Positions 24,104 through 39,850 of a DNA stretch of 42,519 nt are shown here, piece after piece; position 1 is the stretch's first letter; every line of letters begins with the position of its first letter. The stretch is from Cellulosimicrobium funkei. GTDB taxonomy: Bacteria > Actinomycetota > Actinomycetes > Actinomycetales > Cellulomonadaceae. A program made the position numbers and the translations under genes. The stretch lies in contig NZ_SOZH01000015.1 of NCBI RefSeq assembly GCF_004519295.1, forward strand, positions 1 to 42,519, written 5' to 3'. A model generated the notes under the pieces. It was not told the origin of the DNA, made no database searches, and worked only from the letters and a program-made list of their open reading frames with translations.

Positions 24104-25552
24104 TCAGGGGGCGGTAGGCCGAGGGCCGCGTCGGGGCGACGACGGGGTCGGGGCCCGGGACGCCGCCAGGACCGTGCGCTCGACGTCCCGCACCACGGAC
24201 GCCGCGGTCGCGTCGTCGAGGCGCGCCGCGTCCGCCGTGAGCACGACGTCGACGCCGCCGTCCGGCGCGTCCACGAGGTGCAACGTGAGCGTGACGCCGC
24301 CCTGCTCGTCGGACGCGTCGGCGCACGCCAGCCGCCGCGACCGCGTGGGTCGTGCGCGCAGCGTCCGGTCGGGCCCGGTGCCGCGCCGGTCGTTGTACCA
24401 GCACGTCCCGTCGTGCACGGTCGTCGGGTCGGCGGCGGCCTCGCGTCGGAGCAGGTCCTTGTCGTAGTACGCCGAGCGGTACGCGGTCATCGCGGCCCGC
24501 CAGACGCGCGGCCCGACCTCCTCGAACGGGGCGTCGAGGCCGTCGACGTGGAGCAGCCCCTCCATCGCCGTCGTCACGACGGCGTCCGCGAGCGCCGGCC
24601 GGAACCGGTTGCTCACCATGACCTGGAGGGCGAGGTCGTCGCGGCCCGCGGCGGCGGCCAGCGCCCGGCACGACGCCGCGAGCAGCACGCCGGACGTGCT
24701 CGTGCGCCACCGCGCGGCCACGCGCTCCGCGGCGGGCACGAGGCGGAGCGAGCGCAGGACGGTCTGCCGGTAGTGCGGCCGCGCGGCGGCCACCGCCTCG
24801 CCCGCGCCCCCGGCCTCCTCGCCTACGCCTCCTGTGCCCTTGCGGACGGTGCTCCCGCGGTCTGCGTCCCCGCCGTCCGGGCCCTCGGCGTCGGCGCTGC
24901 CTCGCGGGAAGACGACGACGGGCGCCGCCCGCATCGTGCGCAGGGTGCGGGCTCGGGCGGCGGCGTCGTGCCGGCGGCCGTCGTGCGACGTCTGCCAGGC
25001 CGCCTCGTCGAGCGGCGTCCATGCGGCCCGCTCCGGCGGGGCGCTCCCCGCGGCGAGGGCCGTGAGGTCGGCGTCGAGCACGGGCAGGCCCCAGCCGTCG
25101 AGGGCCGTGTGCGCGACGACGAGCACGGTGTGGTGCACCGCGCCGTCGACGGTCACGAGACCGGCGCGCACGGGCAGGTCCGTCGCGTAGTCGAACGCCC
25201 GGCCCCAGAGCTCGTGACGCATCCGTGCGCTGCGCACGGCGACGGCGGCGAGGTCGTCGACGCGCTCCTCGACCACCTCGACCGTCCCGGCGCCGCAGAG
25301 CTCCTGGGCGTAGCCGTCGCCCCGCGCGTGGATCCGCGTCCGCAGGGAGTCGTGGCGCTCGACGAGCGCCCGCACCACCTCGACCGCCGCGGCGGTGGGC
25401 AGCGGTCGGTCGAGCGGACCGCCCCACACGAGGTTGAACTGGTGGTCCTGCGGCGCGAGCGCCACGAGGGCCCGCCGGATGGCGGTCTGCCCCCACGTGG
25501 CGGGCCCCTCGCCCGCGCTCCCGCGGACCTCGACCCGGTGCACGACCCTCAT
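24104..25552 (-). CDS. Stand-alone condensation-domain protein
   Basis: The 482-residue protein resembles one nonribosomal peptide synthetase condensation domain: an N-terminal half with FNLVWGGPLDRP, VRALVERHDSLRTRI, and the active-site region VVAHTALDGWGLPVLDADL, then a second half (YRQTVLRSLRLV, LQVMVSNRFRP). In the HHxxxDG motif the first His is Ala, but the second, catalytic His and the DG are kept (AHTALDG), so amide or ester formation is plausible. A low-complexity insert (GDADRGSTVRKGTGGVGEEA) separates the halves. Last gene of the operon; its ATG overlaps the PPTase stop by four bases. It probably joins carrier-bound acyl and amino units. Confidence 0.82.
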   Translation of the reverse strand: MRVVHRVEVRGSAGEGPATWGQTAIRRALVALAPQDHQFNLVWGGPLDRPLPTAAAVEVVRALVERHDSLRTRIHARGDGYAQELCGAGTVEVVEERVDDLAAVAVRSARMRHELWGRAFDYATDLPVRAGLVTVDGAVHHTVLVVAHTALDGWGLPVLDADLTALAAGSAPPERAAWTPLDEAAWQTSHDGRRHDAAARARTLRTMRAAPVVVFPRGSADAEGPDGGDADRGSTVRKGTGGVGEEAGGAGEAVAAARPHYRQTVLRSLRLVPAAERVAARWRTSTSGVLLAASCRALAAAAGRDDLALQVMVSNRFRPALADAVVTTAMEGLLHVDGLDAPFEEVGPRVWRAAMTAYRSAYYDKDLLRREAAADPTTVHDGTCWYNDRRGTGPDRTLRARPTRSRRLACADASDEQGGVTLTLHLVDAPDGGVDVVLTADAARLDDATAASVVRDVERTVLAASRAPTPSSPRRGPRPTAP

Positions 25553-26247
25553 CGGGCCCCCTCCCCTGCGACGACCGGTCGTGGCACGCGGACCGGGCGG
25601 TCGCGCTGCTCCCCCGGCCACGCCCGGACGCGGCACACGTGCGGGCGCGCGCCCGGCGTCGCGCACGCGGCGACGGCTCCGTCCGGGGCCGGCACGTCGG
25701 ACACCCACCACTCCTGCCCGCGCCACGCGCCGTCGTCGGCCCGCACGACCCCGGGGGTGGTGACGTCGAGCCCGAGCACGTCGAGCAGGCGCCCGCCGAC
25801 CGCCTTGGCGCACGCCTCCAGGCGCGCGAGGCGACGCCAGTCGTCGGCGGCTCCCGCGGTCCGTGCCGCGGGGGCGAGGTAGCGCGCCGCGACGCGGGCG
25901 ACGTCCACGCGGGGGTCGCGCACCTGCACGTCGACGCCCACGTCGTCGGCCGCGAGCGCGACGAGCGCGTGCCCCCCGCTCCGGCTGAGGTTCCACCGCT
26001 GCCCGACGACGGGCCCCGGCTTCCCGTGCGGCCCCACCTCCCACCGGACGTCCGTGGGCGCCAGGCCCGCGCGTCGCGCGAGGATCACGCGGGCGGCGAC
26101 GTGGGCGTGCACGTACCGGGAGGCGTCGACCGCGGACACGAACCGCCGGGACCGCGTCCGCTCCGCCGCGCCCAGCAGGGCGTCCCCGCCGAGCACGGGG
26201 ACCGTCGTGTCGACGTACCAGGCCTCGACGTCGAGGGCTCCGCTCAT
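25549..26247 (-). CDS. Sfp-type 4'-phosphopantetheinyl transferase
   Basis: The 232-residue protein has the Sfp-family layout: [28 protein letters not shown] (the GxxGKP site), [20 protein letters not shown], then GVDVQ and [13 protein letters not shown] (Glu and Lys of the third motif). Two usual residues differ: His of NLSHS is Arg, and the second acidic metal ligand of GxDxE is Gln. Some activity may still be supported by the remaining Asp and Glu. Its role would be to arm the two carrier proteins of the operon with phosphopantetheine. Both ends overlap neighbouring genes by four bases (ATGA). Confidence 0.85.
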
Positions 26248-26942
26248 GCCACGACCTCCAGGCTCGCGACGCGCAGGGGGCGGTCGGCCCGCACGAGGAC
26301 CTCCAGCCCGCCGCGCAGGGGTCGTGCCGCCACCGGCCGCAGGTCCGGCACGCGGTGGTGCGCCCCCGGCACGGGCTCGGGCCCGACGGCGAGCACGGCC
26401 GCCGTCGCCTCGCGCCCCGCCGCGACGCCCGCCGCCGAGTCCTCGAGCACGAGGCACCGCCGCGGGTCGACGCCGAGCAGCCGGGCCCCGGCGCGGAAGC
26501 CCTCGGGGTCGGGCTTCCCGCGCGTCACGTCCTCCGAGCACACGAGGCGCCCCGGCACCGGCAGCCCCGCCGCGGTGAGGCGCGCGAGCGCGACCTCGCG
26601 CGCCGCCGACGTCACGACGGTCCACGTGCGCGGGTCCAGACCGGCGAGCAGCTCGGCCGCGCCCGGCACGGCGACGACGCCCTCGGTGTCGTCGCACGAG
26701 AGGCGGTGCAGCCACGCGACCTCGCGCGCGACGGCGGCGCCCGGCGCGACGAGACGGACGACCTCGACGTCGCGCCGTCCGTGCGACGCGGCGACGACGG
26801 CCTCGCCGTCGAGCCCGAGGCGGGCGGCCCACGCGAGCGTGTGGCGCTCGATCGCGGCGGACGAGTCGACGAGCGTGCCGTCGAGGTCGAGCAGCAACGC
26901 GTCACCGCGCCACCGCCACGCGCCCGCCGGGCCGCCGCTCAC
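26244..26942 (-). CDS. HAD-superfamily hydrolase
   Basis: The 232-residue protein has all four HAD motifs: [13 protein letters not shown] (nucleophile Asp), [10 protein letters not shown] (motif II), [16 protein letters not shown] (motif III Lys) and [14 protein letters not shown] (motif IV). The cap region follows motif I, as in beta-phosphoglucomutase/phosphatase types. It may remove a phosphate from a pathway intermediate or act on a sugar phosphate linked to the adjacent glycosyltransferase-like gene. A C-terminal extension of about 45 residues is basic. GTG start at 26942 overlaps the preceding stop (GTGA). Confidence 0.9.
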
Positions 26943-28966
26943 AGCAGCTCCGCCGCACGCGCGGAGAGCACCGCGGCGTACCGGTCGGCGTACTCCTGCG
27001 CAGCGCCCGTCGCGTGCTGGAGACCGAGCGGCGCGCGGCTCGGGCGGCCGAGCGGCTCGCCCACCGCGCGGGCCACGACGGGCAGGCCGGCCGCCTCGTC
27101 CGCGAGCGCCACGAGGAGGTCGGCGGCGTCGAGCCGCTCCCCGCCCGCGGTCGATGCGCGGCGTGCCGCCCACAGCCCGCGCGAGACGTGCCGTCCGCCC
27201 GGCACGAGGCCGAGGAACCCGCGCACCTCCAGCCGCTCGCACGCGAGGACCTCCACCGTCGCGCGGGCGTCCGGGGTCCGTCCGTCGCCGTGCACGGGGT
27301 CGGGGCCGCCAGGCGCCGGGCGAGGGCAGCCCGTCCCGTCGACCGCAGGGGACGCGTTGTCGTCCGACCCGACGGCGGTCGCCGCTACGCCGTGCTCGTC
27401 CACGACGCCGTGCTCGTCCACGACGTCCTGTTCGTCCGCCACGAGGTGCTCGGCCGCGCCGTCGAGGTCGCCGTGCGCGGCGAGGTCGGCGACGGCGTCC
27501 GCGGCCTGCGCGCCGCACGACGCGCAGCCGTGCACGACGACCCGGACTGGCACCGCGGGACCGGCCGCGCGGCAGACGACGACCGCGTCCCGCTCGGCCA
27601 GGACCCGCACCGCGTCGAGCGCGGCCGGGTCGAGCCGGTCGTCGCGAGCGGCCGGATCGAGCCGGTCGTCGCCAGCGGTCGGGCCACGACGGTCGTCACG
27701 TGCGGCCGGGTCGGGCCGGTCTCCGCGCGCGCCGGGGCCCGGCCGGGCGGGCCCGGCAGGAGACGCGTCGTCCGCCCTGGCGTCCCGCGCCGTGGCCGCC
27801 CAGGCCGCGCCCGCGGCGAGCGCGTCGAGACCGAACGCGACGAGCTCGTCGACGCGGTCCTCGGGGCGGTCGGCGGGGAGCAGCCCCGAGAGCACCCACG
27901 TCCGCACCGCGGCTGCCCGGTGCGCCGTCGTCCCGGGGCCCTCAGGCGGTGGCCAGGCGGTCCGCGCGACGTCGGACCCGAGCAGCCAGCACGCCGCGCC
28001 GAGCTCGACGAGCGCGGCGGGCGCGACGCCCCCCAGCCGCGGGCAGACGCCCGCGGCGAGCGCCGCGACGTCGTGCGCGACGACCGCCGGGTCGACGCCG
28101 AGCCACCCCGCCCAGGCGTCCCAGGCCCACCCGAAGGGGTGCTCGAGCGGCTCGCCCGCCGCGGGTCGCAGGACGCGCAGCGTGCAGCGCGACCGCTCGA
28201 GCGTGACGGCGACCGGCCGCAGGGTCGCCGGGACGCGCGCCGGCGTGCGCTCCGGCCCGGGCCGGTCCCACGCGTCCGGGTCGACGACGTCGTCCGCCGG
28301 GACGGTGGCGTGCCGGGCGCCGTGCGCGTCGTTGCCCGCGAGGCTGGGGCCGTCGCCGTGCTCGAGCAGGTGCGGCAGCGTCGCGACGACCGGGTATCGC
28401 TCGCGCGCGCAGAAGGTCACGACGGCCTCGTCGTCGTCGCGCGCGTCGTCGGGCAGGGTCGTGAGGTGCGCGGCGAGCCGTCGGGCGCCGTCGGCGGGGA
28501 GCACGAGGCCGAGCGTCGGCACCCACTCGTCGTGGCCGAGCGGCGCCCAGGCCTGGCCCGCCGCCGCGGCGGCGCGCACGAGGTAGGCGTTGCGCGGGCT
28601 GTTCCAGTTCGAGTACAGCGCGACGGCGTGCCGCGGCCGGGCCCGCACCGCGCGCCGGACGAGCTCCGCGAAGCCCGCGACGGGCGTGACGTCGTCCTGG
28701 AGCACGAGGTGGTGCGTCGCACCGGGCGCGACGGCGGCCCAGGCGCGCTTCGCGGTGCGCAGCGGGCTGGGCGGACCGTCCGGGTCGGGGTCCTCCACGA
28801 CGCGGACGTCCAGCGGCGCGCACGCGCGCACGAGGGCGGACACGTCGCCCCGCGCCGGGTGATGCATGACGACGACGCTCAGCACCGGGTCGCGGACCTC
28901 GCCCCGCGCGGCCACCCGCCCCGGCCCGGGTTCCCCGGTGCGCACGACCACCGGTCCGGCCGTCAC
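26939..28966 (-). CDS. Large protein with glycosyltransferase-like N-terminus
   Basis: The 675-residue protein begins with about 210 residues like a GT-A/GT25-type glycosyltransferase: [20 protein letters not shown], the metal-type [38 protein letters not shown] and a distal [12 protein letters not shown]. The remaining 460 residues are not recognised; they include helical segments, a 9-residue repeat (consensus DDRLDPAAR) and [13 protein letters not shown], both from DNA tandem repeats, plus [13 protein letters not shown]. It might transfer a sugar to the pathway product or recognise it in another way. Function is unassigned. It is coupled by GTGA to the MATE gene and by TCAC overlap to the HAD gene. 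Confidence 0.65.
27389..27424. repeat. 18-bp tandem repeat inside coding sequence
   Basis: GCCGTGCTCGTCCACGAC is repeated exactly twice (27389-27406, 27407-27424) with a degenerate third copy after it. On the minus strand it encodes repeated VVDEHG units in the glycosyltransferase-like protein. Confidence 0.85.
27621..27728. repeat. Four 27-bp tandem repeats inside coding sequence
   Basis: Units start at 27621, 27648, 27675 and 27702, each beginning GCGG. The first two differ at 2 of 27 positions, the others more. The array keeps frame and encodes nine-residue units such as DDRLDPAAR in a hydrophilic linker of the glycosyltransferase-like protein. Copy number may vary between strains. Confidence 0.85.
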
Positions 28967-30450
28967 GACGTGACCTGCCGCGCCCGGCCGCCGCCCGCGC
29001 GTCGTCGCACGAGACGCACCGCGACGGGGAGCAGGACGGCCAGCCCGACGACGTTCGCCACCGCGATCGTCGCGTACAGCGCGGTCGGCCCGCCCCCCGC
29101 CCGCGCGAGCGCCCCGCCGACCCCGAGCGACACCGCGTGGTAGAGCACGTTGAGCGTCACGGCGACGCGCCCGTACCCGAGCTGTTCCAGCAGCGTCACG
29201 AGGTACAGCACGAGGCCGACCCCCGCGTACGACGGCCCGACGACCCGCAGGTACAGCGCCGCCTGCGCGGCGACCTCCGGGTCGGCGGAGAGCTGCCCTG
29301 CGAGCAAGGGCGCCGCCGCGAGGACGAGGGCGCCCACGACGACGTACGTCCCCGCGACCACGACCGTCCCGGCACGGAACGTGCGCGGGAGGAGGCCGAG
29401 CGCACCTGCGCCCCACTGCTGGTTCATGACGATGCTCACCGCGGCCGCGAGGCCGATGGCCGGCACGACGACGAGCGTCTGCACCGTCGCGGCGCCGCCG
29501 AACCCGGCGACGACGTCGGTCCCCGACGGCCCGAGCACCCACACCATCACGAGGTTCGTCACGGTGAGCAGGAGGTAGGACAGACCCACCGGCAGGCCGA
29601 CGCCGAGGAGGAGCGCGCGCACGTCGACGCCCCGGCCGTCCCCCGCGCCCGGTCGCGAGGCGCCGCGCGTCGGCCGCCCCGGGCGCGGGAGAAGGCGCGC
29701 GCGCACGAGGAGGGCCCACGCGACGCCCGCGCCGACGAGCGTCGACCCGGCGATCGCGACCGGGACGGCGAGGACGCCGAACCCGCCGACCAGCCCGACG
29801 AGCCACACGACGAGCACCTGGAGCCCCGCGACGAGCAGCGCCACGGTCGCCGACGCGCCCGTGCGGCCCCAGCCGCGCAGCGCGGCGGCCGCCACCGCCG
29901 TCGGCACGGACAGGACGCTCGCGAGCACCGTCCAGCGCGCGAACGCCACGAACTCCGCGACGAGCGGGCCCGGCACGGAGAGCACGGTCGCGAGCGCCGG
30001 GGCGGCGAGGACGACGAGGAGCGCCACGGCGCCGAGCACCGCACCGCCCGCGGCGACGAACCGCCCCAGGAGCGCCGTCGTCGCGGACGCCGGTACGTCG
30101 TCCCGGCCGCGCGCGCCGCGCAGTCGCGCGAACCCGACCTGCGTCGAGACGTCGAGACCCTCCTGGACGGCGAGGACGAGGAACGTCACGGGGATGAACA
30201 GCGAGCGCACGTACAGGGCGTCGTCACCCATGTGCCCGAGGAGCGCCGCGACGACGAGCTGCGCGAGCGCTCCGACGACGAGCGCGGCGCAGATCGGGCC
30301 CGCGAGCCGCAGGACGCGTCGGCGCAGCTCCGCGACCGACGGCGCCGACGCGCCCGGCAGCCCCGACCCGCCCGGCGGCGCGGCGTCAGGATCGGGCCCG
30401 GGGACGGGCAGGGCCGGTGCCGTTCCTGCCTCCCTAGACGAGCTCGACAT
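28963..30450 (-). CDS. MATE-family multidrug/metabolite exporter
   Basis: The 495-residue membrane protein has about 12 hydrophobic helices in two halves, as in MATE carriers. Features include VAAALLGHMGDDALYVRSLF, VQEGLDVSTQVGFARLRGA, the mid-domain PVAIAGSTLVGAG, and SIVMNQQWGAG with FRAG in the second half. The first 35 residues are a Pro/Gly-rich cytoplasmic tail. In this operon it most likely exports the product. The ATG at 30450 lies inside the 3' end of the upstream acyl-CoA dehydrogenase gene (17-bp overlap). Confidence 0.9.
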   Translation of the reverse strand: MSSSSREAGTAPALPVPGPDPDAAPPGGSGLPGASAPSVAELRRRVLRLAGPICAALVVGALAQLVVAALLGHMGDDALYVRSLFIPVTFLVLAVQEGLDVSTQVGFARLRGARGRDDVPASATTALLGRFVAAGGAVLGAVALLVVLAAPALATVLSVPGPLVAEFVAFARWTVLASVLSVPTAVAAAALRGWGRTGASATVALLVAGLQVLVVWLVGLVGGFGVLAVPVAIAGSTLVGAGVAWALLVRARLLPRPGRPTRGASRPGAGDGRGVDVRALLLGVGLPVGLSYLLLTVTNLVMVWVLGPSGTDVVAGFGGAATVQTLVVVPAIGLAAAVSIVMNQQWGAGALGLLPRTFRAGTVVVAGTYVVVGALVLAAAPLLAGQLSADPEVAAQAALYLRVVGPSYAGVGLVLYLVTLLEQLGYGRVAVTLNVLYHAVSLGVGGALARAGGGPTALYATIAVANVVGLAVLLPVAVRLVRRRAGGGRARQVTS

Positions 30451-31657
30451 GCCGTGCCCTGCCCTGCAGCCAGCCCTGGGCGAGCGTGAGCCGCTGGACG
30501 GTCCGCGTGCCCTCCATCATCTCCAGGCCGGGCACGTCGCGGACGAGCTTGTCGAGGTACGGGTGCTCCCACCGCGCGCCGGGGCCGAGCAGCGCGGGCA
30601 CCGCGCGCGTGACCTCCTCCGCGAGGTCCAGCGCCGTGGCCTTCGCCGCCGCGGGCAGCGTCCCGTCCGCCGCGTCGGCGTCGGCGCCGCGCGCCGCCTG
30701 GAGCACGAGGGCCCGGGCCGCGTGGAGACGGTCGTCGAACGTCTCGAGCATCAGGCGCTCGTCGGCCAGGAACGACGACCGCGCGGCCCGCACGTAGTCG
30801 AGGGCCGCCTGCGTGACACCCACGGCGAGCGCCGCGACGACGGGCCGCAGCCGGTTGAACGTGCGGACCGCGCCGAGGAGGCCACGGCGCGACGGCGAGA
30901 GGTGCCGGCCCAGGGTGTCCTCCGGGCGGAGCGGCACGTCGCGGAGCCGGACCTCGCCGAGCTGCACGGCCCGCATGCCCGTCGTCACGAGCGGCGCGGC
31001 GTCGAAGCCCGGGCGCGCGGTGTCGACGAGGTAGACCCCGACCCCGAGCGGGCCGGGTCGGTGCCGCGCGAACACGACGCCGAGGCTCGCCCGGGCGACG
31101 TTGCCGACGTACTTCTTGTGGCCGCGCAGAACGGCGCCCGGGCTCCCGTCGTCCGCAGCTGCACCGCCCTCGGTCGCGCCATCCGCCGTCGCGCCGCCCG
31201 TGGGCACGCCTCGCGCGACCACCGCGGTCTCGAGCGCGGCGGCGTCCGAGCCGCGGTCGGGCTCGGTGAGCCCGAAGAACGTCCAGGTGCGCGGCTGCGC
31301 GACGTGCCGGTAGAAGCGGTCGCGCTGCTCGTCGTCCGCGAGGTCGTCCACGACGACCCCGGACATCGACGGCCCCGGCGCCCCGACGACGACGGACGCG
31401 TCGCCCCACGCGAGCGTCTCCGCGACGACGGCGCGCTCGACGCACGTCCGCACGAGCACGGGCACGCCCCGCACGCGCAGCGGGTCGTCGAGATAACCGG
31501 GCGGGAAGCCGCCGAGCTGCCGGTACGGCAGCACGCCGGCGTCGAGGAGCGCGTGCAGCGCGCCCGGGTCCGCGTCGACCGCGAGCGCGCGCTCGCGGAG
31601 CGCGACGGCCACGGGGCGCAGGTGGTCCCGCAGCGCGACGAGGTCGACGGTGGTCAT
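30434..31657 (-). CDS. Acyl-CoA/acyl-ACP dehydrogenase homologue (long subunit)
   Basis: The 407-residue flavoprotein has the full acyl-CoA dehydrogenase layout: N-terminal helices, a beta-barrel with TFFGLTEPDRGSDAAALET and VLRGHKKYVGNVARASLGVV, and a C-terminal helical domain (LRPVVAALAVGVTQAALDYV, LDKLVRDVPGLEMMEGTRTV). EGT near the end matches the region of the usual catalytic Glu, although in some branches Glu sits elsewhere. Linked carriers and ligase suggest it oxidises a carrier-bound acyl chain to the alpha,beta-unsaturated form. Its start overlaps the short homologue's stop (ATGA), as in heteromeric dehydrogenases. Confidence 0.9.
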   Translation of the reverse strand: MTTVDLVALRDHLRPVAVALRERALAVDADPGALHALLDAGVLPYRQLGGFPPGYLDDPLRVRGVPVLVRTCVERAVVAETLAWGDASVVVGAPGPSMSGVVVDDLADDEQRDRFYRHVAQPRTWTFFGLTEPDRGSDAAALETAVVARGVPTGGATADGATEGGAAADDGSPGAVLRGHKKYVGNVARASLGVVFARHRPGPLGVGVYLVDTARPGFDAAPLVTTGMRAVQLGEVRLRDVPLRPEDTLGRHLSPSRRGLLGAVRTFNRLRPVVAALAVGVTQAALDYVRAARSSFLADERLMLETFDDRLHAARALVLQAARGADADAADGTLPAAAKATALDLAEEVTRAVPALLGPGARWEHPYLDKLVRDVPGLEMMEGTRTVQRLTLAQGWLQGRARHVELV

Positions 31658-33383: not shown

Positions 33384-33384
33384 G

Positions 33385-33669
33385 TCAGTTCCGGGTCGAG
33401 TGCTCGACGACGAAGTCCGTCAGCGAGCCGACCGTCTCGAGGTGGTGCTGCTCGAGCGACTCCGGGTCGACCTCCATGTCGAGGGAGTCCTCGAGGGCCA
33501 TGAGCAGGCCGAGGACGCTCGTGGAGTCGAGGTCGAGGTCGTCGAACAGGCGCGTCGCCGCGGTCACGTCGGGCAGCGGTCGTCCGAGGACGCTCGACAG
33601 TGCCTCGACGACGGCCCCGACGACGCGCTCGCGGCCGAGGGCCTCCTGCGGCTCGGTGCTGGTGCTCAC
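33385..33669 (-). CDS. Acyl/aminoacyl carrier protein (ACP2)
   Basis: The 94-residue acidic four-helix carrier has the phosphopantetheine site DLDLDSTSVLGLLMALED (Ser49), as in acyl carrier proteins. It lies beside the PLP decarboxylase and the ATP-grasp ligase, the arrangement of BtrI with BtrK and BtrJ in butirosin, so it probably carries an amino acid thioester. GTG at 33669 follows a GGAGG site. It is the only gene in the operon with a real gap (73 bp) and a hairpin in front of it, which may give it separate expression. Confidence 0.9.
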   Translation of the reverse strand: MSTSTEPQEALGRERVVGAVVEALSSVLGRPLPDVTAATRLFDDLDLDSTSVLGLLMALEDSLDMEVDPESLEQHHLETVGSLTDFVVEHSTRN

Positions 33670-33695
33670 GATGGTTCCTCCGGGTGGTGGGTCGG

Positions 33696-33712
33696 CGCCC
33701 GCGGGGCGGGCG
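33696..33712 (-). other. Hairpin in the only gap of the operon, before ACP2
   Basis: CGCCCGC (33696-33702) and GCGGGCG (33706-33712) form a perfect 7-bp stem with a 3-nt loop between the decarboxylase stop and ACP2's start. It could be a processing or stability element, or a partial terminator. Confidence 0.45.
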
Positions 33713-33742
33713 GTGGCTGGACGACGGCGGACGGGCGGTGGG

Positions 33743-35062
33743 TCAGGGGACGGCGCCGACGGCGACGGGCTCGACCCGCGCGCCGAGGTCGTGGAACACC
33801 TGTCGCGCGAGGAGGTCGTCGGGCGTGTCCGCGTGCCGGACGAGGAACGTCTCGTCGCCCAGGGTGAGCACCTCGGCCGGGTACCCGTGGCTGAGGAAGT
33901 GCACCGGCGACGCCGTCGCGCCGTACGCGCCGGAGCGGTCGACCGCGACGAGGTCGCCCGGCGCGAGGTCGGCCGGGAGCGGCACCGCCTTGCCGATCGT
34001 GTCGTTGGGGGTGCACAGCGGGCCCGTCACGTTCCACGCGACGTCCTCGGCGGTCGACACGGGCCCCACGCGGCGCATCGGGAAGTTGCGCTTGACGAAC
34101 GACCCGATGCCGACGGCCGCCATGTGGTGGTTCGTGCCGCCGTCGGCCACGGCGAACCGCTCGCCCATGGACTCCTTGACGTAGCGCACGCGCGCGACGT
34201 ACGTGCCGCACAGCGCCACGAGGTAGCGGCCGAGCTCCATGACGAGGTCGGTCCGGGGGTGGCGCTGCACGAACGCCTCGACGACGGGGTTGAGCGCCGC
34301 GGTGAGGACCTCGACGTCGAGGTCCCGCTCGCGCTCGAAGTACGCGACGCCCAGGCCGCCGCCGACGTCGACGAGCTCGAGCGGGAACCGCAGGCGCTCC
34401 GCGAGCCGTTCGGCGAGCTCGAAGATCCGCGTCGTGTTCTCGACGATCGTGCCCTCGTCGAGGATCCGCGTCCCCATGTACACCTGGACGCCCACGACGC
34501 GGACCGCGGCGAGGCCGTCGCAGAGGTCCGGTGCGTCGAGGAGCTGCTGCTCGTCGATGCCGAACTGGCGCGGCTTGCCGCCCATGGTGAGCCCGGAGCC
34601 CTTGACCGAGAACGACGGGTTGACGCGCAGCACGACGCGCGCGGGCCGTCCCACCGCCTGCGCGAGCTCGTCCACGAGCGCGAGCTCGGGGAGCGACTCG
34701 ACGATGATCGCGCGCACGCCCGTGTTGAGGCACGAGACGAGCTCGTCCCGGCTCTTGCCGGGACCGAGGAACAGGACGTCCTGCGGTGCGACGCCCGCGG
34801 CGAGCGCGGTGCGCAGCTCGGCGAGCGACGACACCTCGGCGTTCGCGCCGAGCGCGTGCAGCAGCCCGCAGACGCTGACGTTCGGGTTCGCCTTGAGCGA
34901 GTAGAAGATCCCCAGCGCGGGGTGCAGCCGCTCGCGCAGCGCCCGGTAGTTCGCGGCGAGCACGTCGCCGTCGTACACGTACACGGGGGTCCCGTACCGC
35001 TCCGCGACCGCGGCGAGGTCCGCGCTCCCGGGCGTCGTCGGCCGGGTCGGGGTCGTGGTCAT
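33743..35062 (-). CDS. Fold-type III PLP decarboxylase (BtrK/DAP-decarboxylase-like)
   Basis: The 439-residue enzyme has an alanine-racemase-type TIM barrel and C-terminal beta domain. PLP-binding Lys57 lies in FYSLKANPNV; VDVGGGLG (232-239) holds the phosphate; GPLCTPNDTIGK supplies the Cys of the partner subunit; AYGATASPVHFLS completes the site. The HxGS motif of diaminopimelate decarboxylase is YMGT here, so substrate choice differs. Linked to an ATP-grasp ligase and a carrier protein it parallels BtrK, which decarboxylates carrier-bound glutamate. Similar enzymes also occur next to exosortase-associated acyl ligases. Its ATG overlaps the preceding stop by four bases. Confidence 0.9.
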   Translation of the reverse strand: MTTTPTRPTTPGSADLAAVAERYGTPVYVYDGDVLAANYRALRERLHPALGIFYSLKANPNVSVCGLLHALGANAEVSSLAELRTALAAGVAPQDVLFLGPGKSRDELVSCLNTGVRAIIVESLPELALVDELAQAVGRPARVVLRVNPSFSVKGSGLTMGGKPRQFGIDEQQLLDAPDLCDGLAAVRVVGVQVYMGTRILDEGTIVENTTRIFELAERLAERLRFPLELVDVGGGLGVAYFERERDLDVEVLTAALNPVVEAFVQRHPRTDLVMELGRYLVALCGTYVARVRYVKESMGERFAVADGGTNHHMAAVGIGSFVKRNFPMRRVGPVSTAEDVAWNVTGPLCTPNDTIGKAVPLPADLAPGDLVAVDRSGAYGATASPVHFLSHGYPAEVLTLGDETFLVRHADTPDDLLARQVFHDLGARVEPVAVGAVP

Positions 35063-36513
35063 CGGGCGTCTCCTTCGGTGGGGCGGCCGGTGGGCCGCGA
35101 GGCCAGCCGCTCCGTCACGGCGCGGTCGAGGCGGGTCAGGGTGTCGTCGTCGGGCGCGACGAGGAGGCCGTGGAGCCGTCCCGCGAACGTCGCGCCCGAC
35201 GTCGGCCCGGACGCGCCCGACGCCCCCGCGTTGACCGTGCCGGTCCCCTGGACCACGAGGCCCGCCTCGCCGGGGGCGCCGGGCAGCAGGTCGCCGAGCA
35301 GGCCGTGGAGCGCCGCGAACGGGAGCGGCGCGTCGAGCACCAGCGGGTACTGGCGCGCGAGCGCGACCCACCCGTCGGGCTGGAACCGCTCCTGGAGCGG
35401 GACCGTGTACGTCGACATGTTGCTGCGCGCGTTGATCTCGAGGACGGGCAGGAGCCGGCCGTCGGTGCGCACGAGCGCGTCGACCCCGACGAGGCCGTGG
35501 AAGCCGTCGGCCGCGAGGCGCGCGCCGAGGCGGCCCGACAGCTCGGCCAGCGCGTCGACCTGGTCCGCGGGCAGGCGCGACGGGATGCGGTGGCCCTTGT
35601 GGACGCCGCCCTCCGTGATCGCCTCCTTGACGAAGTCGAACGCGACCGAGCCGTCCCGCCCGACGGTGAAGTGGTAGTTCAGGTCCGTCGCCTTGTCGGC
35701 CCAGACCTCCACCACGACGGCGAGGCGGTCGTCGCCCGAGCGCGCGGCCCGGCGCGCGACCATGCGCACGAGCTGGTCGAGCCGGCGCGGGTCGTCGACG
35801 ACGAGGATCCCCTTCCCGGAGACGCCGTACGCGTCCTTGACGCCGACGGTCGCGCCGTCCGCGACGAGCCGCGCGGCCTCGGCGCACGCGCGCTCGAAGT
35901 CCTCGACGGTGCGGCACGCCCAGCCACGCGCCTGCTCGACGCCCAGCTCGTCGCACAGACCGCGGCTGTAGACCTTGCTGTTGACGGTCTTGGTCGTCGC
36001 CGCGTCGGGGAGCACCGAGCGCAGGCCCGTCGCCGTCGCGAGGTCCTCCTCGGCCGACGACGTCCCGTGCGCGAGGAGCCGCACGCCGTCCGCCGCGAGC
36101 TCCCCCAGGCGCGCGAGCAGCGCGGGCGAGTCGAGCGCGTCGAGCGTCACCGTGCGCAGCGGGTCGCTCGACCCGGCGACGTGCACCGTGGGGAGCCCGA
36201 CGCCGAGCGCGTCCAGGTGCGCGAGGTGGTCGGGGTCCGGCTCGGCCTTGAGCACGACGTGGTCGCGCGGGCCCGCGAGGAGCAGCGCGAGCTCGTCCAT
36301 GCGGTGGACGAGCGCGGCCGTCGCCGACGCGCCGCCGACGGCGGGCAGGCCGACCTCCCCGGCCGCCCACGCGTCCTCGACCTCGATGTTCGCCAGCAGC
36401 ACGAGCGGCGCGTCGGGCGCGCCCGCGAGCGCGCGCTTCGTCCGCGCGAGGAACGGCTCGCGGTGGGCCGTGGTGGTCTGCGGGGCTCTCCTCGTCACCT
36501 GGTCGACCGTCAT
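35059..36513 (-). CDS. ATP-grasp ligase (BtrJ-like)
   Basis: The 484-residue protein has a pre-ATP-grasp N-terminal region, then an ATP-grasp core: ATVGVKDAYGVSGKGILVVD (ATP-binding strands and Gly loop), VVEVWADKATDLNYHFTVG, VDALVRTDGRLLPVLEINAR (ExN metal site) and SNMSTYTVPLQER. ATP-grasp enzymes form acyl-phosphates and join acids to nucleophiles; in butirosin biosynthesis BtrJ attaches glutamate to the carrier BtrI. The position beside carrier and PLP decarboxylase suggests it charges ACP2 with an amino acid. The C-terminal 90 residues are variable, with an Ala/Ser/Gly-rich stretch. Four-base overlaps occur on both sides. Confidence 0.88.
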   Translation of the reverse strand: MTVDQVTRRAPQTTTAHREPFLARTKRALAGAPDAPLVLLANIEVEDAWAAGEVGLPAVGGASATAALVHRMDELALLLAGPRDHVVLKAEPDPDHLAHLDALGVGLPTVHVAGSSDPLRTVTLDALDSPALLARLGELAADGVRLLAHGTSSAEEDLATATGLRSVLPDAATTKTVNSKVYSRGLCDELGVEQARGWACRTVEDFERACAEAARLVADGATVGVKDAYGVSGKGILVVDDPRRLDQLVRMVARRAARSGDDRLAVVVEVWADKATDLNYHFTVGRDGSVAFDFVKEAITEGGVHKGHRIPSRLPADQVDALAELSGRLGARLAADGFHGLVGVDALVRTDGRLLPVLEINARSNMSTYTVPLQERFQPDGWVALARQYPLVLDAPLPFAALHGLLGDLLPGAPGEAGLVVQGTGTVNAGASGASGPTSGATFAGRLHGLLVAPDDDTLTRLDRAVTERLASRPTGRPTEGDAR

Positions 36514-37541
36514 ACCCGCTCCTTCGTGTCGTGGGCCGTGGCGCCTTCGGAGCCCTCGGAGAGCCCGGAGACCTCCGAGGCGTCGTGGCGCAGGACCATG
36601 GCGGAGAACGTCGCGCCCAGCCCGACGGCGACCATGAGGAACGGGTCGCCGGGCCGCAGCCGACCCTCGGCGCGCGCGGCCGCGTAGCCGATGAACGAGT
36701 CCGCCCCGAAGCAGTGCCCGGTCACCGGGACGTCGTCGAGCCGGACGCGCGCGAGCGGGAGGTCGAGACGCGTGCACAGCCGCCGCCAGGACACGCGGTT
36801 GACGTTGTGCGGCAGGACGAGGGCGAGGTCGTCCAGCGTGAGGCCCGCGCGTCCGACGGCCTCCAGCACGACCTCGGCGAGCACCTCGGTGTACGCGACG
36901 CCGAACGGGCCCGCGAGATCCTCGGGGAGCGGCACCTGGTGGTACTCGCCCAGCGTGCGGGTCGCGTAGGCGAGGACGGGGCTGCCCAGCGCGGGCCCGT
37001 CGGCGGACGAGCCTGCCGGTCGCGACGCCGCGACGAGGCACGCCGCCGTGCCCTCGCCCATGATCGTCGTGCCCTCGATGAGCCGGGAGCCCGGGCTGAA
37101 CGCCTTCTCCCCCGTGAGCACGAGGGCGAGCGCGTCCGGGTCGCCGTCCGACGCGAGGAGGCGCCCCGCCAGGTCGACCGCGAGCAGCGCCGACGCGCAC
37201 GCGTGCTGGGTGAGCGTCCACACGACCGCGTGGTCCAGGCCGAGGCGCGTCGCGGCGTCGTGCAGGGGGTTCACCCCGACCGGGGCGACCGTCGCGATGG
37301 TCCGCGCCCCCAGCACGTACCGGACGCGGTGCTCGTTGCCCGCGAGCCCGGGCACCGCGCGCGCCGCGGCGACGAGCAGGTCGGTGAGGGTCTGCCCCGG
37401 CGCCGTGCACACCTCGCGCAGCCCGAAGAACCGCTCGAACACGCCGAGCTCGAGGTGGTCGAGGCCGAGCTCGTCGGCGAGGTCCCGGATCGGCACGCGC
37501 GTCGCGGGCACGTGCGCGCCGACGTCGACGAGGGTCGTCAT
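36510..37541 (-). CDS. 3-oxoacyl-ACP synthase III (KASIII)-like enzyme
   Basis: The 343-residue thiolase-fold protein keeps nucleophile Cys115 (LTQHACASALLAVDLA) and His245 (VLPHNVNRVSW). The third KASIII residue, Asn of the GNTSAAS motif, aligns with VTGHCFGADSFIG, so Asn seems replaced by His276. This is typical of KASIII relatives that do acyl transfer or unusual condensations (such as PqsC, which lacks the Asn). It probably joins the ligase-derived acyl unit on ACP1 to a second substrate. The C-terminal tail (SEVSGLSEGSEGATAHDTKE) is acidic. The ATG at 37541 overlaps the ACP1 stop (ATGA). Confidence 0.88.
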   Translation of the reverse strand: MTTLVDVGAHVPATRVPIRDLADELGLDHLELGVFERFFGLREVCTAPGQTLTDLLVAAARAVPGLAGNEHRVRYVLGARTIATVAPVGVNPLHDAATRLGLDHAVVWTLTQHACASALLAVDLAGRLLASDGDPDALALVLTGEKAFSPGSRLIEGTTIMGEGTAACLVAASRPAGSSADGPALGSPVLAYATRTLGEYHQVPLPEDLAGPFGVAYTEVLAEVVLEAVGRAGLTLDDLALVLPHNVNRVSWRRLCTRLDLPLARVRLDDVPVTGHCFGADSFIGYAAARAEGRLRPGDPFLMVAVGLGATFSAMVLRHDASEVSGLSEGSEGATAHDTKERV

Positions 37542-37804
37542 GCCGCCGTCCCTGGGACGTCGACGACGCTGCGTAGGTGCGCCGCGAGCGCGCGCGGCGT
37601 CGGGTTGTCGACGACGGCCTCCGGGTCGAGGTCGACGCCGAGCGCGTCCTCCAGGTCGCCGAGCAGCGCCAGCACCTGGACCGAGCCGAGGCCGAGCCCG
37701 GCGAGGTCGGCCCCCGCGTCCACGTCGGCGGGGGCGACGCCGAGCGCGGTGGCGACGTGGCGCAGCACGAGGTCGTCGAAGGCGTCGGGGCGGGGTGCGG
37801 TCAT
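37538..37804 (-). CDS. Acyl carrier protein (ACP1)
   Basis: The 88-residue carrier has the phosphopantetheine attachment motif GLGLGSVQVLALLGDLE (Ser41), a Gly where most ACPs have Asp before Ser, so it is closer to peptidyl-carrier or polyketide-type carriers. Helices 2-4 read as usual. It directly follows the acyl-AMP ligase, overlapping it by four bases, so it is the likely acceptor of the adenylated acid, and precedes the KASIII-like gene that would use the acyl-ACP. Confidence 0.92.
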   Translation of the reverse strand: MTAPRPDAFDDLVLRHVATALGVAPADVDAGADLAGLGLGSVQVLALLGDLEDALGVDLDPEAVVDNPTPRALAAHLRSVVDVPGTAA

Positions 37805-39621
37805 GGTCGGGTCCCTGCGAGCTCGGGGTGCGCGCGGTCCCGGGCAGCGCGCAGGGAGCGGAGCGCAGCCAGGTCGCCCCGGCCGTGCAGGTCGCGCGCC
37901 CGGCCGCGCTGGATCTTGCCGCTCGTGGTCCGCGGCACCTGGCCGGGACGCACGAGGACGACGTCGTGCACCGCGGCGCCCGAGACCGTCGCGAGGTGGG
38001 CCGCCATCTGCCGGACGACGGCGTCCAGCTCCTCCTCGGCGCTCGCCGCCCCGCCCGCCCGGGCGCCCGGCGTGGGGCGGAACTCCTGGACCGCGCACAG
38101 CGCTCCCGGTCGGCCGTCCGCCTCGAACACCGCGCCCGGGCGGCCCTCGGCCCCGGGGTGCAGGCGGCGCAGCTCGCGCTCCAGGTCGTACGGGTAGAGG
38201 TTGCGGCCCGCGACGATGAGCAGCTCCTTGATGCGGCCCGTGACGACGAGCTGGCCGCCGTGCAGGGCCCCCAGGTCGCCGGTCCGCAGCCACGGTCCCG
38301 TGCCGTCCGCGGCGACGGCGCCGAAGGTCTCCGCCGTCGCGGTCGCCGCCGCCTCGCCCCAGTACCCGGCCGCGACGCTGTCGCCGCGCAGCCAGACCTC
38401 GCCGACCGCGCCGTCCGGCACGGTGGCGCCCTCGCCGTCCACGACCCGCAGCTCCACCCCGCTCGGCACGCCGCAGCACACAAGGCGCGTGCCCGGCCCC
38501 TCGACCGCCGCGGCGTCGGGGAGGGCGGACAGATAGGAAGCCTCCTCCGTCACGACCAGGCGGCCGTCGGCGAGCGCCGTCTCGTCCGCCGTGACGACGA
38601 GCGGGAGCCGCCTGTCGGGGTACGTGGCCGTCAGCGTCGCCTCCGCGAGGCCGTACCCCGGGCCGTGCGCGGACCCCCGGAAGCCCACGGGCTCGAACCG
38701 GCGCGTGAACGCGTCGAGGACGGCCGGGTCGACCGGCTCGGCGCCGCCGAGCGCCCACCGCAGGCGGGACAGGTCGAGCTCGGCGAGCTGGTCGTCGCGC
38801 ACGCGCCGCGCGCACTGGTCGTAGCCGAAGTTCGGCGACGCCGTGACCGTCGCCCCCGTCTCGGTGATGGCGGAGAGCCAGCGGACGGGGCGCTTGAGGA
38901 ACGACGTCGAGGGCACGACGACCGCCGTCGCCCCGAGGCCGAGCGGCACGAGCAGCATCCCGACGAGGCCGAAGTCGTGGTACCCCGGGAGCCAGCTGCA
39001 GAAGACGTCGTCCGGGACGAGGCCGAGCGTCGTGGTGAAGGTGTCGTGGTGGTGCAGCACGTTCGCGTGCGTGACGACGACGCCCTTGGGGCTGCTCGTG
39101 GACCCGGAGGTGTACTGGAGGAACGCGACGTCCTGCGGGTCCGGGCGGTCCCGCCGCGCCGGGCCGTCCGTCGCGCCGTCGACCACGGTGACGGCGACCG
39201 GTCCGCCGTCGGCGCGCCGCAGCGGCACGGCCCACTCCGTCGTCTCGATCGCGGCGGTCGGGTCGACGAGGACGACGGCGGCGTCGCAGTCCGCGAGCAT
39301 GCCGCGCACGCGCTCGCGCTGGTACGCCTGCCCGCCCGGGAGGGGGGACGGGACGGGCACCAGCCCGGCGGAGAAGCACGCGAGGAGCCCGACGACGAAC
39401 GACGCGGTGGCCGAGTAGAGCACCAGCGCGCGGTCGCCGGGCTCGTGGCGGGCGGCGAGGCGGGCTGCGAGCGCCGCCGCCTGCGCGTCGAGCTCGGCGT
39501 AGGTGAGCGTCCGCCGCTCCCCCACCTCCGGCACGACGACGACCGCGGGGTGGTCCGGGCGCTCGCGCACGTGGTCGCGGACGAGGTCCACGAGAGTCCG
39601 GTCGTCCGGCAGCACGCCCAC
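37801..39621 (-). CDS. Fatty-acyl-AMP ligase (FAAL-type)
   Basis: The protein of about 606 residues adenylates a carboxylic acid with ATP and passes it to a carrier. Motifs: phosphate loop YTSGSTSSPKG (170-180), FAAL-type WLPGYHDFGLVGMLLVPLG, GPGYGLAEATLTATYP, WLRTGDLGALHGGQLVVTGR and IKELLIVAGRNLYPYDLE, and the C-terminal PRTTSGKIQR with the catalytic Lys. The YPYDLE segment and the GYHDFGL segment favour FAAL over acyl-CoA synthetase, so the acceptor should be ACP1 next door. GTG at 39621 is chosen for its AGGGGG site; longer starts near 39762 read through the AT-rich promoter. First gene of the operon. Confidence 0.92.
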   Translation of the reverse strand: MGVLPDDRTLVDLVRDHVRERPDHPAVVVVPEVGERRTLTYAELDAQAAALAARLAARHEPGDRALVLYSATASFVVGLLACFSAGLVPVPSPLPGGQAYQRERVRGMLADCDAAVVLVDPTAAIETTEWAVPLRRADGGPVAVTVVDGATDGPARRDRPDPQDVAFLQYTSGSTSSPKGVVVTHANVLHHHDTFTTTLGLVPDDVFCSWLPGYHDFGLVGMLLVPLGLGATAVVVPSTSFLKRPVRWLSAITETGATVTASPNFGYDQCARRVRDDQLAELDLSRLRWALGGAEPVDPAVLDAFTRRFEPVGFRGSAHGPGYGLAEATLTATYPDRRLPLVVTADETALADGRLVVTEEASYLSALPDAAAVEGPGTRLVCCGVPSGVELRVVDGEGATVPDGAVGEVWLRGDSVAAGYWGEAAATATAETFGAVAADGTGPWLRTGDLGALHGGQLVVTGRIKELLIVAGRNLYPYDLERELRRLHPGAEGRPGAVFEADGRPGALCAVQEFRPTPGARAGGAASAEEELDAVVRQMAAHLATVSGAAVHDVVLVRPGQVPRTTSGKIQRGRARDLHGRGDLAALRSLRAARDRAHPELAGTRP

Positions 39622-39850
39622 GTCGCCCCCTGCTCGCCGGCGCCGGGACCGTCCCGACGCACGCGGACGCCAGGAAGCACACGCCCCACCCCGGCGGTCC
39701 GGGGGAAGCCTCGCAGCGGTTGCTCGCGGTGTAAACAAATTCACGTGGCCGGAAGAGGACAAATGCCTTCTCTCGACCGCAACCCGTCACATCGGTCCGC
39801 ACCGCGGGACGGCCCGGGACCGTTGCCGGGGTCGACTACAGTCACACGGC
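39622..39850. promoter_or_regulatory. Divergent promoter region of the operon and its LuxR gene
   Basis: The 229-bp gap holds the only AT-rich patch nearby (39731-39763, containing TAAACAAATTCACGTG and GGACAAATG). On the minus strand a TTGTCC (39762-39757) could be a -35, but no good -10 is evident. CACGTG at 39742-39747 is a possible regulator dyad. On the plus strand TACAGT (39837-39842) ends 8 bp before the GTG of the LuxR gene, suggesting leaderless transcription. Confidence 0.5.

Follow-up and report, generated by a model that had tools for sequence, protein, structure and literature searches.

Organization of the operon

The window analysed here is the whole 42,519-nucleotide stretch of contig NZ_SOZH01000015.1 from Cellulosimicrobium funkei (assembly GCF_004519295.1). 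It holds 14 operon genes, all on the minus strand between positions 24104 and 39621, running from a fatty acyl-AMP ligase (FAAL) to a condensation (C) domain. In that order, and preceded by a divergent upstream gene, the features are as follows:

39851-40522, plus strand: LuxR-type regulator (PF00196, 38.6 bits), divergent, upstream of the operon
37801-39621, minus strand: FAAL, fatty acyl-AMP ligase (PF00501, 237 bits), start codon GTG at 39621
37538-37804, minus strand: ACP1, free-standing carrier (PF00550, 56.7 bits), phosphopantetheine site LGLGS
36510-37541, minus strand: ks3, KAS III-like protein (PF08541, 57.2 bits) with Cys115, His245 and His276
35059-36513, minus strand: grasp, PreATP-grasp ligase (PF18604, 63.1 bits)
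33743-35062, minus strand: dec, PLP decarboxylase of the BtrK type (BtrK structure 2j66, E 8e-97, 327.8 bits)
33385-33669, minus strand: ACP2, second carrier (PF00550, 38 bits), site LDLDS
32370-33383, minus strand: KSL, degenerate KAS III-fold partner of ks3, assigned by fold; alternative start at 33341
31654-32373, minus strand: acd1, short acyl-CoA dehydrogenase-like protein, C-terminal domain only (PF00441, 27.7 bits)
30434-31657, minus strand: acd2, acyl-CoA dehydrogenase-type flavoprotein (PF00441, 58.7 bits; PF02770, 51.9 bits)
28963-30450, minus strand: MATE-family exporter (PF01554, 90.1 bits)
26939-28966, minus strand: GT-like protein, with an N-terminal GT-A-like domain and a C-terminal domain (Foldseek, low-confidence model)
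26244-26942, minus strand: HAD phosphatase, closest to sugar phosphatases (PF00702, 66.9 bits)
25549-26247, minus strand: Sfp-type phosphopantetheinyl transferase (PPTase), weak match (PF01648, 14 bits; cut-off 25)
24104-25552, minus strand: stand-alone C domain (PF00668, 40.2 bits; cut-off 30.6), motif AHTALDG

Ten of the 13 gene junctions are 4-base overlaps, in agreement with the initial annotation, which had described fourteen one-strand genes with mostly such overlaps. The remaining junctions are a 17-base overlap, a 73-base gap between dec and acp2, and a 1-base gap that assumes the KSL start at 33383. The extent first given to the unit, 24104 to 39850, holds at its lower end but not at its upper end, since the FAAL gene most likely starts at the GTG at 39621. 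The free-standing assembly set that had been proposed is borne out by Pfam and NCBIfam matches for 12 of the 14 genes, although that of the PPTase is weak (in NCBIfam, HetI at 36.6 bits against a cut-off of 370). KSL and the GT-like gene had no family in these searches.

The absence of a modular synthetase, also claimed at the outset, was confirmed by family searches of the 14 genes, which found no NRPS or PKS modules, and, for NRPSs, by a whole-genome PF00668 search. At E ≤ 0.001, the sole place retrieved was the stand-alone C domain; no NRPS was therefore found in the genome, and a modular NRPS encoded elsewhere in it was rejected.

Conservation of the operon and distribution of its core

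The full 14-gene order, shared by Cellulosimicrobium and Oerskovia, was present in 11 out of 13 fetched relative loci, indicating that it is not due to chance and answering the check on gene-order conservation suggested in the initial annotation. The order is still complete in Oerskovia, where the operon proteins share 44-80% identity. One of the other two loci is cut by a contig end, and that of Cellulomonas sp. B6 contains the core only. The LuxR-type gene adjoins the operon in all 11 fetched Cellulosimicrobium genomes, is absent from Oerskovia, and is a likely regulator of the operon. Among the 13 usable genes, ksl and acd1 showed the weakest constraint in the comparison with locus L015 (dN/dS of 0.59 and 0.55), and the value for ksl reached 0.83 against L025. 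The acp1 gene was excluded from dN/dS and from homologue counts, because the rows assigned to it were acp2.

A seven-gene core also occurs in Streptomyces, Micromonospora, Amycolatopsis and others. In these, it often adjoins NRPS genes, genes for glutamate mutase or those for Dpr-type synthases. A C domain standing alone with no NRPS seen nearby was found in Cellulosimicrobium, Oerskovia, Microbispora and loci L052, L059, L061 and L073, where 'NRPS-free', outside this genome, refers to the 11-21 kb stretches inspected. At its edge, the L059 stretch includes a PKS-type fragment. A single origin of the NRPS-free FAAL type was rejected: in a midpoint-rooted FastTree phylogeny of ks3, grasp and dec (39 taxa), the 17 loci of this type were not monophyletic, although the support of their common node was poor (0.304).

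Locus L047 was considered as an outright enamidonin cluster and rejected. It encodes four modules, the second of which is followed by an epimerase-like motif. Judged by motif, module 2 is Phe-like, whereas a different code is common to modules 1, 3 and 4, which does not correspond to the order Phe-Dpr-Dpr-Gly. L047 also carries genes matching the Pfam families PALP and OCD_Mu_crystall, which we take to be of the SbnA/SbnB type.

Relationship to known enamide pathways

We read the operon as an NRPS-free version of the N-acyl-dehydro-β-alanine (enamide) route of bolagladin, AFC-BC11 and autucedine/enamidonin. Its 14 separate proteins would probably make a fatty acyl enamide (N-acyl-dehydro-β-alanine) thioester on a carrier and pass it to an amine via the C domain, which is consistent with the acylated amine initially suggested as the product.

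In bolagladin biosynthesis, N-acyl-dehydro-β-alanine is made from aspartyl-ACP with the help of a BtrK-like decarboxylase, of KAS III homologues and of an acyl-CoA dehydrogenase; deletion of bolQ (acyl-CoA dehydrogenase) yielded a β-alanine analogue of bolagladin, and deletion of bolN (BtrK-like) was not rescued by β-alanine (PMC7756342). The operon resembles this starter route in ACP-bound aspartate (predicted here), in a decarboxylase like BtrK, in a set of two KAS III homologues and in an acyl-CoA dehydrogenase (BolQ in bolagladin). Unlike the operon, bolagladin uses a VinN-like adenylation enzyme and an NRPS, and the Cys that ks3 keeps is replaced by Ser in BolM and by Thr in BolP.

For AFC-BC11, encoded by the Burkholderia afc genes, aspartate loading, on-carrier decarboxylation and acylation have been rebuilt in vitro (PMC12186527). 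The system shares with the operon a free-standing FAAL, a carrier, a PLP decarboxylase, KAS III-like enzymes, dehydrogenases, a glycosyltransferase-type gene (UDP-glycosyltransferase-type in afc) and dehydro-β-alanine (predicted here). It also differs: AFC-BC11 involves no C domains, whereas the operon has one standing alone, and it relies on VinN-type aspartate adenylation and one carrier, whereas the operon has an ATP-grasp ligase, two carriers and a degenerate KAS III partner. The AFC-BC11 product is a dehydro-β-alanine trimer ended by dehydro-lysine.

For autucedine/olenamidonin, the proposed role of a 3-oxoacyl-ACP synthase is the ligation of acyl-CoA with a dehydro-β-alanine-type unit on a carrier, written 'DHA-ACP' (PMC11204786). 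Autucedine, enamidonin and olenamidonin are thus similar to the operon, by description only, in being actinobacterial and in acyl ligation by a 3-oxoacyl-ACP synthase; unlike the operon, the aut/ole product is described with the peptide Phe-Dpr-Dpr-Gly. The autucedine genes may be the closest known to the operon, and their loader may well be of the same ATP-grasp type.

The operon has the traits shared by the bol, aut and afc pathways, namely a BtrK-type decarboxylase and a carrier with intact sites, a desaturase with its catalytic Glu (acd2) and KAS III homologues (ks3 by family, KSL by fold). The modular NRPS of the bol and aut lipopeptide clusters is absent, the genome containing one PF00668 place. 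A literature search covering few subscription papers retrieved no described cluster with the exact 14-gene set, and the literature searched on Cellulosimicrobium clusters held no description of this operon. This agrees with the earlier view that no characterised pathway is known to have this exact set, but the logic has precedents in bolagladin and AFC-BC11.

Proposed carrier loading and on-carrier decarboxylation

In the proposed pathway, the PPTase would arm ACP1 and ACP2, and FAAL is predicted to load a fatty acyl chain on ACP1. The top NCBIfam matches of FAAL are FAAL models (best, 375 bits), all under their cut-offs; the CoA ligase-named model PRK07768 also matches, at 310 bits and under its cut-off. 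The LGLGS site of ACP1 is also found in the five relatives inspected (L015, L016 and L024-L026). The site Ser of ACP2 is present in all 38 profile-assigned homologues, although in L033 and L034 the protein assigned may be a different carrier. Family matches support the coupling noted initially, with ACP1 paired with the acyl-AMP ligase and ACP2 with the ATP-grasp ligase and the decarboxylase.

Among the 14 genes, FAAL is the sole AMP-binding protein; there is no VinN-type aspartate adenylation enzyme, and a PreATP-grasp ligase is present instead. The four residues checked in grasp are identical in 36/36 homologues, and no PDB relative was found by sequence at E ≤ 0.01. The best DAP decarboxylase in the PDB scores 167 bits against dec, versus 327.8 bits for BtrK, and the PLP Lys and the Cys of the CTPND motif are kept in 36/36 dec homologues. 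Assignment of dec as an ordinary DAP decarboxylase (LysA, 276.6 bits; cut-off 297.9) or as an exosortase-type enzyme (TIGR03099, 352 bits; cut-off 478) was rejected, as both scores are below cut-off and BtrK is closer in the PDB. Across the 40 loci compared, grasp and dec co-occur in all 36 that have either one. We predict that grasp loads an acidic amino acid on ACP2 via its side-chain carboxyl and that dec acts on the resulting aminoacyl-S-ACP2. With aspartate, removal of the alpha-carboxylate would give β-alanyl-S-ACP2.

Aspartate is the presumed substrate, although BtrK itself acts on glutamate. The butirosin proteins BtrI/BtrJ/BtrK resemble the operon in having a carrier, an ATP-grasp loader and, in BtrK, the nearest solved relative of dec; they are not known to be accompanied by a FAAL, a KAS III pair, dehydrogenases or a C domain. 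The butirosin unit is an aminoglycoside side chain. Given that BtrK is a glutamyl-ACP decarboxylase, the same assembly line could be loaded with glutamate, as by BtrJ/BtrK, producing a GABA unit and, after dehydrogenation, a 4-aminocrotonyl unit. This seems unlikely, since glutamate mutase E lies beside the core in 9 out of 11 loci of one clade (support 1.0). Glutamate mutase makes 3-methylaspartate, and its association with the core favours an aspartate-type substrate. Moreover, the published carrier-bound routes with an acyl-CoA dehydrogenase and KAS III begin from aspartate.

Predicted acyl transfer by ks3 and its degenerate partner

A profile search for ks3 relatives retrieved 1378 proteins at E ≤ 1e-10 among 7998 scored candidates. 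The Cys and the second His of ks3 are kept in 40/40 homologues and the first His in 39/40; the second one, His276, replaces the Asn of FabH. ks3 is predicted to be an acyl transferase. The structure model of KSL (pLDDT 74, pTM 0.78) gave 50 listed Foldseek matches, all of them condensing or acyl-transfer enzymes of the KAS III fold; the best among those listed was ChlB3 (E 1.2e-8; TM about 0.5, rmsd over 10 Å). When KSL and ks3 are aligned jointly, the residues of KSL that face the ks3 Cys, His and His are Leu, Asp and Tyr. Only 1 of 38 KSL homologues has the Cys (L047), 1 has the first-place His and 2 have the second-place His. These counts leave out L034, whose assigned KSL is ks3 itself and where ks3 is followed only by a short, weakly similar gene. 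KSL was assigned in 39 of the 40 loci compared; the one without it, L053, is cut by a contig end. An active-site-Cys subunit thus lies beside a Cys-less partner, as in PqsBC-like KAS III enzymes, and we presume that the active/degenerate pair resembles PqsBC.

This pair would shift the acyl chain from ACP1, via the ks3 Cys, to the free amine of β-alanyl-S-ACP2. ks3 and KSL need not act on β-alanyl-ACP, because they are also found without grasp and dec in L032, L033, L061 and, weakly, L034. Nor need a KAS III protein be the acylating enzyme, since in AFC-BC11 the FAAL is able to carry out amine acylation itself in vitro (PMC12186527).

Both proteins are related to KAS III by family or fold, and their active/degenerate pairing resembles PqsBC; these features would also suit a PqsBC-like C-C bond formation between the acyl chain and the carrier-bound unit, leading to an aminoketone, tetramate or pyrroline. 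We regard this as very unlikely: no malonyl-loading enzyme or ketoreductase family occurs among the 14 genes, ks3, with His where FabH has Asn, departs from the FabH triad, and the acyltransferases ChlB3 and CerJ are among the nearest solved folds of KSL.

Alternatively, the C domain would join acyl-S-ACP1 and aminoacyl-S-ACP2 (lipoinitiation), leaving ks3/KSL for release, like AfcL of AFC-BC11. Lipoinitiation C domains with FAAL and a free ACP are described for daptomycin-type lipopeptides (PMC9113097), and AfcL stores a β-alanyl chain and passes it to lysyl-CoA (PMC12186527). However, ks3 and KSL are present in NRPS-type loci (those long enough) in which no stand-alone C domain was assigned. 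An early step therefore suits them better than release, making this arrangement rather unlikely.

Proposed desaturation, transfer and acceptor

In the enamide reading that we prefer, acylation by ks3 would be followed, in this tentative order, by desaturation of the β-alanyl unit by acd2, together with acd1, to form the enamide. The catalytic Glu of acd2 is present (MMEGT) and kept in 29/29 homologues. acd1 has no middle domain in the Pfam search and is predicted to be an inactive partner of acd2. The loss of its catalytic Glu is not firm: the active-site place holds Ala in one alignment and Thr in a gappy joint alignment, in which 8/27 homologues have Glu. In L025, the gene caller overlooked acd1, which nevertheless matched in the sequence comparison of the locus. 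L052 lacks acd1 and acd2 beside KSL, having a distant acyl-CoA dehydrogenase-like gene upstream of ks3, and no acyl-CoA dehydrogenase was seen among the listed ORFs of L057, so the enamide is not obligatory.

The second His and the Asp of the C domain motif are kept in 15/15 homologues. We predict that this protein substitutes for the first NRPS C domain of related clusters, in which role it would pass the lipid unit on to the amine of an acceptor. A sugar-containing acceptor may be prepared or finished by the GT-like protein together with the HAD phosphatase, and the MATE protein would export the product. The GT-like model is of low confidence (pLDDT 59, pTM 0.37), and its top Foldseek matches are GT-A glycosyltransferases (E 4e-4, TM 0.18 of the query). 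Its C-terminal part is a separate gene in L072 (2233-2766; 33% identity over 112 aa, E 2e-6 computed against three sequences). The HAD phosphatase matches the PRK11587 sugar phosphatase model at 150.8 bits, below the cut-off of 282.

In a Microbispora genome, FAAL and two C domains accompany the core, together with glycosyltransferase-like genes and genes for a NodB-like deacetylase, for an aminotransferase and for a sugar-type dehydrogenase, a setting that hints at an amino sugar as the acceptor. The L052 gene after the C domain, transposase-like by eye, is a polysaccharide deacetylase in Pfam, and the former assignment was rejected. NodA acylates its sugar after deacetylation by NodB. It is conceivable, albeit doubtful, that the operon encodes a lipid-enamide glycoconjugate route with the core as an exchangeable cassette, in which N-acyl-dehydro-β-alanine would be transferred to an amino sugar via the stand-alone C domain, in a NodA-like manner. 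The cassette would then be built on ks3 with its degenerate partner and the dehydrogenase with its short partner, and actinobacteria would have coupled it several times to NRPSs or to sugar-building genes.

Significance

Some antibacterial and antifungal lipopeptides carry acyl enamides on dehydro-β-alanine, which is a rare motif. The predicted enamide pathway is here reduced to separate proteins, making each step testable in vitro. Its ATP-grasp loader differs from that of bolagladin and AFC-BC11, and two of its catalysts each have a degenerate or short partner. The combination of ks3-KSL with grasp-dec offers a sequence handle for uncharacterised clusters. If the acceptor is indeed a sugar, the operon would represent a new way of lipidating amino sugars.

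Operon structure and conservation

The host genome (4.38 Mb, 19 contigs) carries an operon of separate genes and a divergent neighbour:

39621 -> 24104, minus: operon, whose first nine genes are, in order, FAAL (acyl-AMP ligase), ACP1, ks3 (KAS III-like), grasp (PreATP-grasp ligase), dec (PLP decarboxylase), ACP2, KSL (degenerate KAS III-fold partner of ks3), acd1 and acd2 (short and full acyl-CoA dehydrogenase-type proteins)
Ending at 24104, minus: operon tail after acd2, comprising MATE, GT-like, HAD, PPTase and C-domain genes
39851-40522, plus: LuxR-type gene, divergent and upstream of the operon

The initial annotation had described fourteen genes on a single strand with mostly 4-base overlaps, as was borne out at 10 of the 13 junctions; one overlap is 17 bases long, and the remaining junctions are gaps of 1 base and of 73 bases, the latter ending in a GGAGGA site. 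The proposed comparison of gene order with other genomes also favoured a genuine unit, with all 14 genes in unchanged order in 11 of the 13 further loci fetched. A contig end cuts locus L023 after KSL, and Cellulomonas sp. B6 (L027) has only the core, namely ks3, grasp, dec, acp2, KSL, acd1 and acd2. The most distant complete locus (L026, Oerskovia) shares 44-80% identity per gene, and dN/dS relative to locus L015 was 0.09-0.59 for 13 measurable genes, acp1 being excluded. The gene set is real and conserved, and its logic is recognizable.

Counting the host itself, grasp relatives were detected in 14 of 200 genomes of the family and in 12 of the 17 same-genus genomes among those listed (both E <= 1e-20), as well as in 7 of 394 genomes of the class (E <= 1e-40), and ks3 relatives in 4 of 297 genomes of the order (E <= 1e-30). 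With so few genomes carrying ks3 in the order or grasp in the class, the set is scattered and uncommon. The operon is also present in record QAPD01000069.1, titled Sphaerisporangium cinnabarinum ATCC 31213, where grasp is 94% identical; this record is probably mislabelled, as its contig has the same length as one in G106, a genome that belongs to the same genus as the window.

A recurrent core module

Scanning the grasp alignment against named genomes yielded 25 loci in one scan. The comparison set comprised 40 loci, some short, picked via grasp or ks3, leaving out duplicates and unextended loci (e.g. L077-L080). Profiles assigned ks3 in 40, KSL in 39, acp2 in 38, grasp and dec in 36 each, acd2 in 29 and acd1 in 27. 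The KSL assignment in L034 was rejected, since ks3 is followed there by just a short, weakly similar gene. The core recurs as an exchangeable module, within which ks3 and KSL form a unit of their own, being found near each other without grasp or dec in L032, L033 and L061.

Three loci carry ks3 with an AurF-like oxygenase and a methyltransferase-like gene (L034:9178-14119, L057:4746-13769 and L063:4614-14621), the AurF-like call coming from Pfam for L063 and by eye for the other two. KSL, grasp and dec accompany ks3 in L057 and L063, and an adenylation-type protein is encoded in L034 and L057. These loci probably represent a different pathway reusing the same enzymes. In a second cluster of the Micromonospora gifhornensis genome (L062:8040-15703), dec lies on the opposite strand, and ks3, grasp, acp2, acd1 and acd2 remain together. 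In Amycolatopsis vastitatis (L060), the core adjoins a four-module NRPS with one A domain that reads as Phe-like and three with a common motif code; SbnA/SbnB-type genes are present, and the cluster possibly specifies an uncharacterised Dpr-rich lipopeptide. An 11-kb NRPS gene lies beside the core, with the dehydrogenase slightly apart, on the linear Streptomyces decoyicus plasmid NZ_CP108348.1 (L082); the module can thus be plasmid-borne.

Paired proteins and the condensation domain

Both the Cys of ks3 and, by alignment, a His at the FabH Asn position are kept in 40/40 homologues. KSL is modelled with a KAS III fold (pLDDT 74, pTM 0.78; best Foldseek E 1.2e-8, TM about 0.5, rmsd over 10 A). 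When 38 true KSL homologues were aligned jointly with ks3, the Cys and the first His were each kept in one (the Cys in L047) and the second His in two. The catalytic Glu of acd2 is present in 29/29 homologues. Its partner acd1 matches the C-terminal acyl-CoA dehydrogenase domain alone and has no Glu at the active-site position in the window; since the joint alignment is gappy and places a Glu there in 8 of 27 homologues, acd1 inactivity is only a prediction, on which the proposed mechanism does not rest. The partner proteins presumably form complexes.

A whole-genome PF00668 search (E <= 0.001) matched one place, the operon C domain, and found no NRPS, in agreement, as far as NRPSs go, with the earlier claim that no modular synthetase is present. 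Ala replaces the first His of the HHxxxDG motif; the second His, the catalytic one in C domains, and the Asp are kept in 15/15 homologues.

Candidate substrate and acceptor

Eleven Streptomyces, Micromonospora and Allorhizocola loci form one clade (support 1.0). Upstream of ks3, all eleven carry AsnRS-like and glutamate synthase-like genes, 9 have glutamate mutase E and 7 have its S subunit, three of the contigs being shorter than 8.5 kb. Glutamate mutase produces 3-methylaspartate, which points to aspartate-type substrates in these loci. In L047 and L055, acd2 is followed by SbnB-type and SbnA-type genes. We infer that aspartate is the amino acid loaded in the window.

We propose that an N-acyl-dehydro-beta-alanine (enamide) would be built on a carrier and handed to an acceptor amine. 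The acyl unit would pass to the NRPS where the locus is of NRPS type, and to the lone C domain in the window. A Microbispora stretch (G842) encodes MATE, GT-like, a short gene, a C domain and an opposite-strand inositol-phosphatase-family gene, then a class III aminotransferase, a Gfo/Idh/MocA oxidoreductase, a NodB-like deacetylase and a second GT-like gene, and further on FAAL, two large dehydrogenases, an ACP, the core, a second C domain and PPTase. Genome G607 has much the same set, mostly read by likeness, with one C domain seen, and in L052 a NodB-like-type deacetylase directly follows the C domain. An ino1 gene beside the Microbispora cluster fits the mycothiol-type model and was not counted. 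The GT-like protein occurs in 6 of the 24 searched genomes with a ks3 relative, near grasp in G607 and G842 and on a different contig or far off in the other four; in Kitasatospora sp. NPDC004240 and in Streptosporangium subroseum, too, the GT-like and grasp proteins apparently come from one contig. Some lineages therefore have a real sugar link, and many have none.

The GT-like protein (26939-28966) ends in a part with a CxxC-like motif, which in L072 and, judged from position only, in L109 and L111 is encoded by a small gene of its own; the copies in L072 and L111 had no Pfam match.

Precedents for the chemistry

The dec protein matches BtrK (E 8e-97, 327.8 bits) well ahead of the best DAP decarboxylase (167 bits). 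The route proposed for bolagladin starts from ACP-bound aspartate: a BtrK-like enzyme decarboxylates it, a KAS III homologue acylates the nitrogen and BolQ introduces the double bond; bolQ deletion gave the beta-alanine analogue (PMC7756342). For AFC-BC11, loading, decarboxylation and acylation, the last by the FAAL, have been rebuilt in vitro with no C domains (PMC12186527). For olenamidonin/autucedine, the proposal is that a 3-oxoacyl-ACP synthase joins acyl-CoA to DHA-ACP (PMC11204786); the autucedine pathway is compared here from its description, and its loader may be the same ATP-grasp as ours. The operon has a counterpart for every step of these precedents, the candidate loader being the PreATP-grasp ligase (PF18604). 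Acyl-enamide pathways, among them one built of separate proteins, were known before this operon; with no NRPS found, it joins an ATP-grasp loader, two carriers, a degenerate KAS III partner and a lone C domain with GT-like and HAD genes, a combination that we have not seen elsewhere.
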